A DNA stretch of 64,000 bases, taken from Lacinutrix sp. WUR7 (GTDB lineage Bacteria > Bacteroidota > Bacteroidia > Flavobacteriales > Flavobacteriaceae). Below, in pieces: positions 2,089 through 46,807 of this stretch. The notes beneath the pieces were generated by a model, which made no database searches, was not told the origin of the DNA, and saw only the letters and a program-made list of their open reading frames with translations. The stretch covers positions 2,986,001 through 3,050,000 of the forward strand of contig NZ_CP045067.1 of NCBI RefSeq assembly GCF_016864015.1. Direction: 5' to 3'. The translations under genes and the position numbers were made by a program. Every line of letters starts with the position of its first letter. Positions within the stretch are counted from its first letter, which is position 1.

Positions 2089-3351
2089 TTAATCTTCCCA
2101 AAAATCTGGTTGTATATTAGACCCAACTGATGTGCAATCTCCACATTCTGGATTTGTAAGTATCCAATAATCATTTATGTTATTAGGTAATTCAGAACTA
2201 GATAAATTATAAGTGATACTGTAGTTAAAATTTATATCTGCATTTAAGGTTAAAAGTCTATATATTTCTGCTCTTTGATTAGGTGTGCGGTCACTGAGAG
2301 TGTTATCTGAACCATCTAAGGCTATTTTTTCACATTTATATAAATAGTCGGGTCTAAGTATTGCAAAATCATTATGACTAAAATATATTCTTTTTGTTGC
2401 AATTGATTCTACCGAAAAGTAACCGATAACTTTTGAGTTAGGGTTAGTTGTAGATTCTATATTACCAGTAACATATCCAGGTTGGTTTTGTGATAAGACA
2501 CTTCCAATATTTCCTAATTCATTTACTACTTTATAAAAAGTATAGGCCTCGATTGATTGTGAATACTGTTTTACAAGAATACTATAGCGGTCTCTAAGAA
2601 CACCATTGTTTTTGTTAATAAAATGAACAGGAAGCTTTGAAACAGTATTAAAAATAAGATCATTAGTAGAGGCTTGTAAAATTCCAGTAGAATTGTTAAA
2701 GCCATAACAAACACGCTCTTCTTGAGTTCTATTAGGAAAAGAAAAACTAAAATCAACTAAAGTGTTACCACCAAAAGGAACTGCACTATAATTAAATATA
2801 TAGGCCTCTTCGTTTACATAGTTAGGTGCTATAATTTGATATGTTTCTTCATATTCATATCTAAAATATCTAGTGTCGCTATTTTGATTTTCACTATCTA
2901 AAAATATTTGAATACCTTCCTCACCATCATCATTAGTTAGAAGTTCTGAATAGAGATTAGTTATTTCAGATTCTGCTGTCAAAATACTTGGTTTAGATTT
3001 ATACTCATTTCCATCTTGGGTACTAATATATAGTGAGTATTCTAAGTTATTAATTGCTTGAAAAGGTATGTTTGAAATATATTGCCCTTCAGTATTTTGA
3101 GAAAATGAGTATATATTATTATTACTATCTTCTACCCAAACTGTGGCATTTTCTTCAGTTACTGGTTCGCTTTCTTCAAGAATGAATGTTCTAGATAATT
3201 TTACAACTTGATGTTTTAATTCGTTAGTAATAGTGCTTTCTACAACTAGAATATCTTCAAAAGTTAAGGTTTCTACTTCATAGGGTTCTCTACATGCAAA
3301 AACAATTAGAAGTATTGCTAACCCGAAAAGACTATATGTTTTTGTTTTCAT
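2089..3351 (-). CDS. DUF4249 family lipoprotein
   Basis: A 420-residue protein with a lipoprotein signal ending LLIVFAC, which puts the lipidated Cys at position 20, so it should sit in the outer membrane or on the cell surface. The sequence after it (FEDILVVESTITNE, then a beta-rich domain and a Cys-containing tail, NPECGDCTS) fits DUF4249, a Bacteroidota-specific family nearly always encoded next to an STN-domain TonB receptor. It lies 2 bp downstream of such a receptor and 2 bp upstream of the plug-like protein, so the three are almost certainly co-translated. Family members are thought to work with the receptor in the manner of a surface lipoprotein partner; the substrate is unknown. Family assignment is firm; the role is inferred. 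Confidence 0.88.
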   Translation of the reverse strand: MKTKTYSLFGLAILLIVFACREPYEVETLTFEDILVVESTITNELKHQVVKLSRTFILEESEPVTEENATVWVEDSNNNIYSFSQNTEGQYISNIPFQAINNLEYSLYISTQDGNEYKSKPSILTAESEITNLYSELLTNDDGEEGIQIFLDSENQNSDTRYFRYEYEETYQIIAPNYVNEEAYIFNYSAVPFGGNTLVDFSFSFPNRTQEERVCYGFNNSTGILQASTNDLIFNTVSKLPVHFINKNNGVLRDRYSILVKQYSQSIEAYTFYKVVNELGNIGSVLSQNQPGYVTGNIESTTNPNSKVIGYFSVESIATKRIYFSHNDFAILRPDYLYKCEKIALDGSDNTLSDRTPNQRAEIYRLLTLNADINFNYSITYNLSSSELPNNINDYWILTNPECGDCTSVGSNIQPDFWED

Positions 3352-43904: not shown

Positions 43905-44273
43905 CTATTTCTTAAAAGCTTTCCCTTTTTGTTTCAACTTTTCGCCAACATAAGAATACTCAAAAGTATATGAGCTATCTGTTGTTGTAAGGATTTTTAA
44001 ATGCACATCTTTACGTTCTGCCATGTTTTTAGGATTAATGGTCTTAAAGATCATCTCGCAGTCGTTAATCCATCGTACTTGTGCAGAATCTGTTTTACCT
44101 TGGTACACTTCTATTTGTAAATCTTTAGTTCTTGTAAAATCAGATTTATAAACCACAGAGTCAATTATAACTTCGCTATAAAAACTACCTGTTTTGTAAT
44201 CTGTACAATTTCTTTCTACTTGGTAACAACTAGAAAAACTTAAAAGTACTAAGGCAATCAAAAAATATCTCAT
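43905..44273 (-). CDS. Small lipoprotein of unknown function
   Basis: A 122-residue protein with a lipoprotein signal ending LLSFSSC (Cys16 from the chosen start). The mature part is beta-rich with further Cys (ERNCTDYK, NDCEMIF) and the stretch MAERKDVHLKILTTTDSSYTFEY. From memory, flavobacterial homologues are sometimes labelled 'DNA topoisomerase IV', apparently because they lie close to parC; nothing in the sequence supports that. An ATG at 44291 would add 6 residues, but the promoter element at 44289 overlaps it, so the ATG at 44273 is preferred. It is followed by terC on the same strand. Confidence 0.78.
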   Translation of the reverse strand: MRYFLIALVLLSFSSCYQVERNCTDYKTGSFYSEVIIDSVVYKSDFTRTKDLQIEVYQGKTDSAQVRWINDCEMIFKTINPKNMAERKDVHLKILTTTDSSYTFEYSYVGEKLKQKGKAFKK

Positions 44274-44288
44274 TAAAAATCTTTTGTA

Positions 44289-44296
44289 CAAAATTA
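44289..44296 (-). promoter_or_regulatory. Promoter -7 element for the small lipoprotein
   Basis: Minus-strand TAATTTTG fits TAnnTTTG, 15 bp upstream of the preferred start at 44273. It argues against the alternative start at 44291. Confidence 0.5.
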
Positions 44297-44372: not shown

Positions 44373-44801
44373 TTATGAATTGTTAAAATTTTGAAAACTA
44401 CCATCGGTATAAAAAATTACAATGCGTTCTATTTTTTTTTCGGAAGAAGTGTTTAAGGAAAAATTAGAAGAAGATGGATTCGGAATTCCTACATTTTCAT
44501 TTTTAGGAGGGAGTATTTTTTTTTCCACTTTTTCCACTTTCGGAGTTTCTGGAATTTTTTCTTCGGTTTTATTTTCATTTGGAAAAACTCCTTTTCCATT
44601 CATCAACCAATATAATTCTACTTCTGGAAAATGGGAGAGTACCTTCATTACAAAATCTAAACTAGGCTTATTTCTGCCGGAAAGAATATGCGAAATAGTA
44701 GAGCGTTGCACACCAACTTTCTCTGCAAAAGAGGAAGCACTTTCTCCGTAAAAATCGATGACTTTCTGTAGTCTTTTTGTAAATCCTTCGATGTTTATCA
44801 T
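44373..44801 (-). CDS. XRE family transcriptional regulator
   Basis: A 142-residue regulator. Residues about 4-60 form a Cro/CI-type helix-turn-helix (FAEKVGVQRSTISHILSGRN as recognition region). The rest is proline-, lysine- and glutamate-rich and probably unstructured up to the final strand KIERIVIFYTDGSF. A TTG at 44810 would add three residues, but the ATG at 44801 is a better start. It is divergent from an M14 carboxypeptidase gene, and both promoters sit in matching operator-like sequence, so it probably controls itself and that gene. The inducer is unknown. Confidence 0.9.
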   Translation of the reverse strand: MINIEGFTKRLQKVIDFYGESASSFAEKVGVQRSTISHILSGRNKPSLDFVMKVLSHFPEVELYWLMNGKGVFPNENKTEEKIPETPKVEKVEKKILPPKNENVGIPNPSSSNFSLNTSSEKKIERIVIFYTDGSFQNFNNS

Positions 44802-44809
44802 TGTAAACA
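44795..44809 (-). promoter_or_regulatory. Operator-like site 1 (partial), at the regulator start codon
   Basis: Minus-strand TGTTTACAATGATAA matches TGTTTACnnTTGTAA at 11 of 13 fixed positions, and covers the ATG. It also forms a GTTTA...TAAAC inverted repeat. Confidence 0.4.
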
Positions 44810-44829
44810 AGTTGTTTTGTTTTTATAAC

Positions 44830-44845
44830 GTTACAAATGTAAACA
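44830..44845 (-). promoter_or_regulatory. Operator-like site 2, over the regulator promoter
   Basis: Minus-strand TGTTTACATTTGTAAC matches the motif exactly and contains TACATTTG, a TAnnTTTG -7 element (44834-44841), 33 bp from the ATG. Confidence 0.6.
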
Positions 44846-45015
44846 TTATTTTGATAGTACTATTGTATTTACTTGTTATATTTGATTATAGTTGATTTTT
44901 TACTTCATATAATATGTGTTAATTAACTGAAAATAAGATATTTGATTGTTAAATTTAAATTATGTTAAATTTTTCTAAGCGGTTTTATGTTTCGTCTTGT
45001 AAACGCTGTTGTTTT

Positions 45016-45030
45016 TGTTTAACAATGTAA
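45016..45030 (+). promoter_or_regulatory. Operator-like site 3 (partial)
   Basis: TGTTTAACAATGTAA matches the motif at 11 of 13 fixed positions. A loose TTGTAAAC half-site lies just upstream at 44998. Confidence 0.35.
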
Positions 45031-45050
45031 CCAAAAGAGCGGTGTAATCT

Positions 45051-45066
45051 TGTTTACAATTGTAAA
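45051..45066 (+). promoter_or_regulatory. Operator-like site 4, palindromic
   Basis: TGTTTACAATTGTAAA matches the motif exactly; its inner 14 bases (45053-45066) are a perfect palindrome. It lies over the -33 region of the peptidase promoter. Confidence 0.6.
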
Positions 45067-45073
45067 TTATCAA

Positions 45074-45090
45074 TTGTTTACCTTTGTAAT
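45074..45090 (+). promoter_or_regulatory. Operator-like site 5, over the peptidase promoter
   Basis: TTGTTTACCTTTGTAAT matches the motif exactly and contains TACCTTTG, a TAnnTTTG -7 element (45079-45086), 19 bp before the ATG. Confidence 0.6.
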
Positions 45091-45105
45091 CAATACAAGT
45101 TACAT

Positions 45106-46263
45106 ATGGAATTAGAAACCTTAAAATCATTATATAAAGAACACAAAGAAGCACAGCTTTTTGGACGATATATTCACTCGGAAAGCATAGCTCCTCTACT
45201 GGAGAAATTAGCTGAAAAATGCGAAGTTTTAGTGGTAGGAAAATCTGTTCTTCAAGAAAATATTCATACTATTACCATTGGATCTGGATCGAAAAAAATA
45301 TTAATGTGGTCGCAAATGCACGGAAATGAAAGTACCACAACGAAGGCGATTTTCGATTTAATAAACCTTTTATTAAGTGGTGAAGAAGTTTCAGAAGCTA
45401 TTTTAAAGACTTGCACGATACAAATTATACCTATTTTAAGTCCCGATGGCGCAAAAGCATATACACGTGTTAATGCGAATCAGGTGGATTTAAATAGAGA
45501 TGCTCAAGATCTTACGCAGCCAGAAAGTATTATTCTTAAAACCTGTTTTGAGAGTTTTAAACCTCATTTTTGCTATAATCTACATGGGCAACGGACTATT
45601 TTTAGTGCAGGAAACACAGATAACGTTGCTACAGTTTCGTTTTTAGCTCCAGCACAAGACGAAATCTGTACTATTACTCCTAATAGAAAGAGAGCAATGG
45701 AAGTTATTGCGGTTATGAATGCTAATTTACAGCAACAAATACCAAATCAAGTTGGTGTTTATGATGATGCTTTTAATATTAATTGCGTTGGTGATACCTT
45801 TCAGACCCAAAATATTCCAACAATTCTTTTTGAAGCTGGTCATTATAAGGATGACTACGCAAGAGAAAATGTGAGAGCGTATATTTTTCAGTCTTTGTTA
45901 GTTTCGTTAAACTATATAACTAACAATGTGGTTTCTGGTGATGCTTATCTTCCTTATTTAGATATTCCAGAAAACCAAAAGTGCTTTTATGATCTTATTA
46001 TTAGAAATGCTAGAGTAGTTCAAGGAGGTGATTTATTGGATATAGCCATTCAGTATCAAGAACGATTAATTACAGATACTATTGAATTTATACCTAAAAT
46101 AGAAAAATTTACAGGCCGAAATCAGTTTTTTGCGCATAGAGAAATAGAAGCGAATGGAAGTGTGGTAGAAACGGTGGAAAAAGAGGCAATAATTATAGGT
46201 TACGAAAACGATTTAGTAAAGTTAAAAAATGAAGAAATTTCATTAAAAATAACAAAATCTTGA
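45106..46263 (+). CDS. M14 family zinc carboxypeptidase-like protein
   Basis: A 385-residue cytoplasmic-type protein (no signal peptide) of the M14 peptidase family. The zinc ligands are H72 and E75 (MHGNES) and H160 (NLHGQ); the arginine pocket reads DLNRD at 128-132, and the catalytic Glu is E243 (LFEAGHY). It would remove C-terminal residues from peptides or act on a related amide such as a peptidoglycan fragment. It is divergent from the XRE regulator, with operator-like sites over its promoter, and is followed by an Lrp/AsnC gene with its own promoter-like element. Confidence 0.93.
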   Translation: MELETLKSLYKEHKEAQLFGRYIHSESIAPLLEKLAEKCEVLVVGKSVLQENIHTITIGSGSKKILMWSQMHGNESTTTKAIFDLINLLLSGEEVSEAILKTCTIQIIPILSPDGAKAYTRVNANQVDLNRDAQDLTQPESIILKTCFESFKPHFCYNLHGQRTIFSAGNTDNVATVSFLAPAQDEICTITPNRKRAMEVIAVMNANLQQQIPNQVGVYDDAFNINCVGDTFQTQNIPTILFEAGHYKDDYARENVRAYIFQSLLVSLNYITNNVVSGDAYLPYLDIPENQKCFYDLIIRNARVVQGGDLLDIAIQYQERLITDTIEFIPKIEKFTGRNQFFAHREIEANGSVVETVEKEAIIIGYENDLVKLKNEEISLKITKS

Positions 46264-46327: not shown

Positions 46328-46807
46328 ATGGCTAAGTTTAAATTAGACGAAATAGATCATCAGATTTTAGATATGTTGATTCAAAATACGAGAGTTCCTT
46401 TTACAGATATAGCAAAAAAATTATTAATTTCTGCTGGAACTGTGCATGTAAGAGTTAAAAAAATGGAAGATGCAGGAATAATAAAAGGTTCTTCATTAAC
46501 TTTAGACTATAAAAAACTTGGTTACTCCTTTATTGCTTATGTTGGCGTGTTTTTACAAAATACATCACAAACAAAATTTGTATTAGAGCGTATCAACGAA
46601 ATACCAAATGTAACTGTCGCACATATTACTACAGGGAAATTTAATATTTTCTGTAAAATTAGAGCAAAAAACACAGAGCATGCAAAAGATATTATCTTTC
46701 AATTAGATGATATTGAAGGTATTTACAGAACAGAATCGATGATTTCTTTAGAGGAAAGTATAAACGATAAAAAACGATTAATGCATTCTATTTTTAGTGA
46801 ATTATAG
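46328..46807 (+). CDS. Lrp/AsnC family transcriptional regulator
   Basis: A 159-residue regulator: N-terminal winged helix-turn-helix (about 5-50, LDEIDHQILDMLIQNTRVPF and then ISAGTVHVRVKKMEDAGII) and a C-terminal RAM ligand-binding domain (about 65-150). The family senses amino acids as octamers or dimers. Which amino acid is sensed is not evident. It follows the M14 gene by 64 bp, has a promoter-like element of its own and a strong terminator. Confidence 0.95.
   Translation: MAKFKLDEIDHQILDMLIQNTRVPFTDIAKKLLISAGTVHVRVKKMEDAGIIKGSSLTLDYKKLGYSFIAYVGVFLQNTSQTKFVLERINEIPNVTVAHITTGKFNIFCKIRAKNTEHAKDIIFQLDDIEGIYRTESMISLEESINDKKRLMHSIFSEL

Follow-up and report, generated by a model that had tools for sequence, protein, structure and literature searches.

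A conserved palindrome array between divergent XRE regulator and M14 peptidase genes of Flavobacteriales, with helically phased spacing that suggests a looping repressor

The intergenic region between a gene for an XRE-type regulator and a divergent gene for an M14 zinc carboxypeptidase, within the 64-kb stretch of DNA analysed here (hereafter the window), carries an array of palindromic sites that is probably the operator of the XRE protein, which would repress both its own gene and the M14 gene with the two clusters of sites joined by a DNA loop. The original prediction, a self-regulating repressor that also controls its neighbour, finds support in the order-wide conservation of this arrangement, in the joint loss of regulator and sites and in their covariation in one lineage; the −7 boxes of the two genes and the start codon of the regulator gene are also covered by predicted sites. 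The helical phasing of the distance between the clusters, which would imply the loop, is new beyond that prediction.

The original prediction placed five copies of TGTTTACnnTTGTAA in this region, three exact and two partial. The exact copies were all found, at positions differing by at most a few bases (44831–44845 on the minus strand, 45051–45065 and 45075–45089 on the plus strand), and there are no others in the window; the partial copies, placed at 44795 and 45016, correspond to 44792–44809 (one mismatch) and 45016–45030 (two mismatches). The length of 304 bp given for the gap is correct from the ATG of xre at 44801, not the upstream TTG at 44810, to the ATG of the M14 gene at 45106. All copies represent one palindrome, TTTACAnnTGTAAA, with a dyad core TTACAnnTGTAA that is often lengthened to TGTTTACAnnTGTAAACA, and they are better described as dyads than by the motif first given. 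The sequence at 44988–45002 is a look-alike with two mismatches and lies outside the array. A PWM built from 293 sites located the array in nearly all loci, with O1 at −7, O2 at about +28 and O3 at about +63 from the XRE start, and with O4, O5 and O6 of the right half at about 217, 252 and 276. O3, a third left site about 35 bp past O2, is present in some relatives and absent from the window. The features of the locus are listed in Table 1.

Table 1. Features of the XRE-M14 locus in coordinates of the window (operators, promoter elements and loop are predicted)
Feature	Position	Strand	Remarks
XRE-type regulator, 142 aa	44373–44801	−	HTH_3 (Pfam); ATG at 44801 (MINIEGF..., conserved); TTG at 44810 gives a longer reading
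O1, predicted operator	44792–44809		TGTTTATCATTGTAAACA; XRE ATG inside the palindrome; PWM 12.3
O2, predicted operator	44828–44845		Holds the −7 box of the XRE promoter, TACATTTG, on the minus strand
AT-rich spacer of the predicted loop	44846–45015		O2–O5 distance 223 bp here
O4, weak predicted operator	45016–45033		35 bp before O5, a spacing also seen in relatives; PWM 12.1
O5, strongest predicted operator	45051–45068		TGTTTACAATTGTAAATT; over the M14 −33 region; PWM 21.9
O6, predicted operator	45075–45092		Holds the M14 −7 box, TACCTTTG; 24 bp after O5; PWM 20.6
M14 zinc carboxypeptidase, 385 aa	45106–46263	+	Peptidase_M14 (Pfam, 3.5e-11, above cut-off)
Lrp/AsnC-family regulator	46328–46807	+	Directly 3′ of M14, also where XRE is lost

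Sites with up to three mismatches numbered 97 in the window, against 76 ± 9 in shuffled sequences (little excess), and a single 12-mer was not enriched genome-wide (7 matches, against 9 for the reversed control). This lack of enrichment, and the presence of −7 boxes within two of the sites, would fit a chance likeness in AT-rich intergenic DNA, arising partly from the resemblance of TTACATTTGTAA to the −7 box of Bacteroidota. However, in genome-wide counts resting on pattern searches (the strict pattern KTTTACAWWTGTAAAM being too strict to be of use), two cores 24–35 bp apart occurred once in the 4-Mb genome of the window, at the XRE-M14 locus, and O5 was the only site of this genome within one mismatch of GTTTACAnnTGTAAAC. 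In 120 genomes, almost all of the paired sites among the matches listed were at the XRE locus, and the reversed control gave 9. Together with the conservation, co-loss and phasing described below, this unique pairing means that the comparative data, as we read them, already refute an origin by chance, to which we attach practically no weight. A wider regulon was rejected, since nearly all paired sites are here and the motif taken singly does not exceed the background; judged by its predicted sites, the XRE protein is a local regulator.

The sites of the array coincide with the putative promoters of both genes. TAnnTTTG has been reported as the sigma-A −7 consensus of F. psychrophilum (PMC9723704), and this element is present in the direction of the gene at O2 in 76 of 78 loci and at O6 in 71 of 78. 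At O5 it has no direction (16 forward, 23 reverse), and O5 holds no −7 box. The directional conservation at O2 and O6 backs the proposal that one exact copy per gene contains the −7 box, and the palindromic copy that had been assigned to the −33 region of the peptidase gene is O5, the strongest site. We infer that dimers of the XRE protein bind the TTTACAnnTGTAAA palindromes and that, at O2, at O6 and at O5 over the −33 region, they would bar the sigma-A polymerase from both the XRE promoter and the M14 promoter, so that the protein would repress its own gene and the peptidase gene. That it might instead activate or dually regulate the M14 gene via O4 and O5, while O1 and O2 shut xre, seems doubtful to us. 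In its favour, no other site is as strong or as well conserved as O5, which lies at the −33 region, and O6 is weak in some loci (scores about 9–12). In many loci, however, O6 occupies the −7 box, a position suited to blocking, and TAnnTTTG is retained at O6 also in loci with a weak palindrome, which suggests that the promoter can work without the site.

As a start-codon operator, O1 was missed by the original prediction; its being a real member of the array is supported by the sequence around the ATG of xre, which it spans. The sequence TTACAATG[G/A]TAA was found there in 63 of 68 loci (as TTACAATGGTAA or TTACAATGATAA), codons 2–3 of xre are GTAAAC or ATAAAC in 78 of 88, and an isoleucine at codon 2 is encoded by ATA in 41 of 44 cases, ATT being the common isoleucine codon in the window. 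The preference for ATA and the fixed codons 2–3 therefore point to a constraint on the DNA and not on the protein alone. Dimers at O1 would block the start of the XRE gene.

Of 250 Flavobacteriaceae genomes sampled, 241 have an XRE orthologue according to a profile search, and the divergent XRE-M14 order was observed in about 100 loci across Flavobacteriales, nearly all of them with the palindromes. In the loci analysed for gene order (30 from relatives, and 80 from named records that range from Flavivirga to Flavobacterium), the M14 gene is divergent to XRE and followed by the Lrp/AsnC gene in nearly all cases where the contig reaches. Loss of the motif in relatives that keep the gene pair had been put forward as grounds for refutation; the comparison was run and did not refute the prediction, the array accompanying the two genes throughout Flavobacteriales. 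Outside this order, members of the M14 family are rare: matches were obtained in 8 of 119 class-level genomes, four of which belong to Flavobacteriales themselves. In L148, L150, L153, L154 and L077, the left cluster is moved 11 bp from the XRE start (+4, +39), which is one helical turn.

The XRE gene is absent from 9 of the 250 Flavobacteriaceae genomes and from Kriegella, Maribacter algarum and Aurantibacter (whole-genome check for these three). Among the XRE-less loci with an M14 gene and readable upstream DNA, 10 of 11 were without sites (L104, L106, L126, L129–L133, L136 and L146), the best PWM score being ≤0.8, against 12–25 elsewhere; these genomes still carry M14 and Lrp. In the remaining XRE-less locus, L128, one site is left, at the position of O5 (score 14.2), as expected if XRE was lost recently. 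The scan covered 400 bp upstream of M14, and the counts allow for L070 and L147, which are loci cut by contig ends, and for L027 and L028, which have long gaps and in which the site is nearer to XRE than the scanned 400 bp. L127 and L131 belong to one genus, the former with XRE and sites, the latter without either. The tree indicated about eight changes for each trait (XRE, sites), and of about six phylogenetically independent pairs, about four agreed and none opposed (sign test p 0.125). These data are consistent with the co-loss of XRE and its putative sites in few independent events. In L135 (positions 2443–3105), the XRE protein is 32% identical and its recognition helix starts with TRAN rather than the usual QRSS/QRST, and the usual operator is missing, a perfect altered palindrome, TGTATACAAATGTATACA, being found in its place. 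This locus may represent a natural specificity switch, in which regulator and operator changed together.

The same loci bear on the possibility that the binder of the sites is the product of the neighbouring Lrp/AsnC gene rather than XRE. The Lrp gene does follow M14 in nearly all loci, but the sites are gone in genomes with M14 and Lrp but without XRE, on which ground Lrp was rejected as the binder of the array, and in L135 the changed sites accompany a changed XRE; we regard this assignment as extremely improbable. The palindromes assigned here to XRE thus lie over both promoters, are kept with the gene pair and depend on XRE, as would be the case for the operators of an autoregulated divergent repressor.

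The distance between O2 and O5 takes only values of about 203, 213, 223, 233, 245 and 255 bp, with a step of 10.5 bp. In the first set (72 loci), in which three weak-O5 loci were reassigned to the canonical O5 position, R was 0.88 at 10.5 bp and the best period was 10.15; the distances outside the Aquimarina clade were 202–203, 212–215, 222–225 and 232–234 bp. A second, unseen set was taken from 80 further genomes, mostly of other genera, and comprised 74 after the removal of duplicates and of two without a full array. All 74 were at 202–204, 211–215, 222–224, 234–235, 245 or 255 bp and none was intermediate; R was 0.87 at 10.5 bp, the best period was 10.5 and the class means had a step of 10.49 bp. 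A jittered null (5,000 sets) yielded R values of at most 0.38, but it counts genomes as independent, which they are not, and the tree is therefore a fairer test of phasing. For the canonical loci of the first-set tree, there were 11 changes of 9–12 bp, none of 3–8 bp and 20 shifts of 1–2 bp. The restriction to whole-turn distances indicates that helical phase has been selected, and selection of phase over about 210 bp is the classic signature of looping. The helical phase expected of a looping repressor is seen here by an evolutionary test, and distance alone cannot tell which protein forms the bridge. The Aquimarina clade lies outside the distance rule, with 227, 234, 252 and 282 bp and extra sites, and this exception, the single site kept in L128 and the small number of independent losses count against our best reading. 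In the Aquimarina loci L079, L083, L086, L087, L089 and L097, the intergenic region is 358–385 bp long and has up to seven sites. A bent spacer was considered and dropped, since a 10.5-bp periodicity of A-tracts was sought in the spacer and none was found, giving no sign of built-in bending.

Spacings inside the clusters are 24 or 34–36 bp in both sets, and each of the spacings (24, 35 and O2–O5) exceeds a whole number of 10.5-bp turns by about 3 bp. It could be argued that XRE represses both genes with the clusters acting separately, and that the quantised distance reflects some other phase-sensitive contact, for example between two polymerases or through a nucleoid protein. Each cluster indeed covers a promoter by itself, and no oligomerisation domain was recognised in XRE. 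However, the phase between clusters is kept over six turn classes in two samples, and the residue of about 3 bp (mod 10.5) equals that of the 24- and 35-bp spacings, which points to a single protein contact within and between clusters; we therefore consider independent clusters unlikely. In the loop model that we favour, protein contacts would bridge neighbouring dimers (24 or 35 bp apart) as well as both clusters, the separation of which (203–255 bp) is always about n turns plus 3 bp. This bridging would fold the intergenic DNA into a loop and lock both promoters together, with the C-terminal hairpin of XRE as the candidate bridging surface.

The XRE protein belongs to the HTH_3 regulators (32.9 bits against a cut-off of 23; 6.9e-08, Pfam). 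Its AlphaFold2 model consists of a confident HTH (residues 4–68), a disordered linker and a C-terminal beta-hairpin (residues 126–140; pLDDT 83–89 in the hairpin block), and the hairpin sequence IERIVIFYxDGSF is conserved. The HTH has a Cro/C1 fold, with matches to the 434 repressor, SinR and C proteins (E about 1e-3 to 1e-2), and a fold search with the whole protein returned matches to the HTH part alone and none to the hairpin. Beyond the HTH, domain searches and the model revealed no Pfam domain and no recognisable ligand/sensor or oligomerisation domain. A C-terminus that, according to the model, holds only a hairpin and no known tetramerisation domain speaks against the loop reading. The lambda CI-like self-cleaving class was rejected, as the hairpin alone follows the HTH and linker, and so was an antitoxin of the HigA or HipB type (18.5 bits, against 47.7 for HigA), the partner being a peptidase that is kept without XRE in some genomes.

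RcoLS20, the tetrameric repressor of the conjugation switch of the Bacillus subtilis plasmid pLS20, forms a phase-dependent loop, and a 5-bp insertion destroys regulation (PMC4207663; PLoS Genet 2014). Like the system proposed here, it combines an N-terminal HTH repressor with two operator clusters of multiple sites at its own and the opposite divergent promoter. It differs in its 75-bp spacer with a static bend (200–255 bp and no bend seen for XRE-M14), in its operator and in being located on a plasmid, XRE-M14 being a chromosomal pair. Lambda CI acts at OR and OL through pairwise cooperativity and looping, features also proposed here for XRE, but its loop is 2.3 kb long and it has a large C-terminal dimerisation/self-cleavage domain. 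XRE resembles it in the Cro/C1-type HTH and in operators about 24 bp apart, one of them over the repressor's own promoter, but has a beta-hairpin alone after the linker and does not belong to the CI family. The AraC loop between araO2 and araI1 is about 210 bp, depends on helical phase and involves a regulator promoter divergent to the target; AraC, however, has the AraC-family fold with a sugar-binding domain, and XRE is without such a sensor. SinR and the C proteins (3qq6, 1y7y), which are the closest solved HTH folds, are small and have multiple operators, but SinR has many targets and a SinI-binding domain and C proteins belong to restriction systems, whereas XRE is associated with a single locus with M14. 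In the open-access literature, we found no report of a looping repressor in Bacteroidota or of the XRE-M14 pair.

The assignment of the peptidase to the M14 family agrees with its intact active site, in which the columns of the HxxE...H zinc ligands (H72, E75 and H160), the NR carboxylate clamp (N130-R131) and the catalytic Glu (E243) are invariant, and with its model (pLDDT 88.5), which matches solved M14 carboxypeptidases (E 2.9e-11). Given this active site and the absence of a signal peptide evident by eye, the enzyme is likely to be a cytosolic peptidase acting on short peptides; its sequence points to no substrate. It was not assigned to MpaA (NCBIfam PRK10602), since the match covers 31 residues and scores 18.2 bits, the cut-off being 157. 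The M14 catalytic residues and fold are common to this enzyme and to MpaA and other bacterial M14 peptidases, but the match to MpaA is weak, and the protein is longer (385 aa, against about 240) and has an additional beta domain at its C-terminus. Several genomes (L140–L145) encode, at another place, a second M14 paralogue in a frame of about 495 aa, which has no operator sites. The Lrp/AsnC protein has 78–93% identity in most family loci. M14 and Lrp look like the core pair, with XRE as its control. The module may have the suggested role in sensing peptides or the cell wall, although the XRE protein has no recognisable sensor domain and the peptidase sequence points to no substrate. It is conceivable, although we would not expect it, that an HTH-linker-hairpin protein with no known sensor or oligomerisation domain closes a phase-locked loop at one chromosomal locus throughout Flavobacteriales and that the peptidase, or a peptide which it produces, contributes to the release signal, the peptidase acting, for example, on the conserved C-terminal hairpin of XRE. 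If so, the quantised spacers would constitute an evolutionary record of the loop, with a helical repeat of about 10.5 bp in living Flavobacteriaceae.

Few model systems with looping repressors are known, and here comparative genomics by itself shows selection of helical phase over a distance of about 200 bp in some 146 genomes, a clean natural data set for loop mechanics. The regulator and its putative operator are common to an order whose members are major bacteria of marine and fresh waters; the result would give a role to a gene whose annotation in hundreds of species is no more than 'helix-turn-helix protein', and would supply a tightly defined promoter module to a phylum poorly served with tools. 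On the other side of the regulator gene, 3′ of XRE, positions 43905–44291 encode a short protein that has no Pfam match and seems to carry a lipoprotein signal (SFSSCYQ), and an apparent homologue of this gene directly faces M14 in the XRE-less loci L128 and L131, as if XRE had been cleanly excised.
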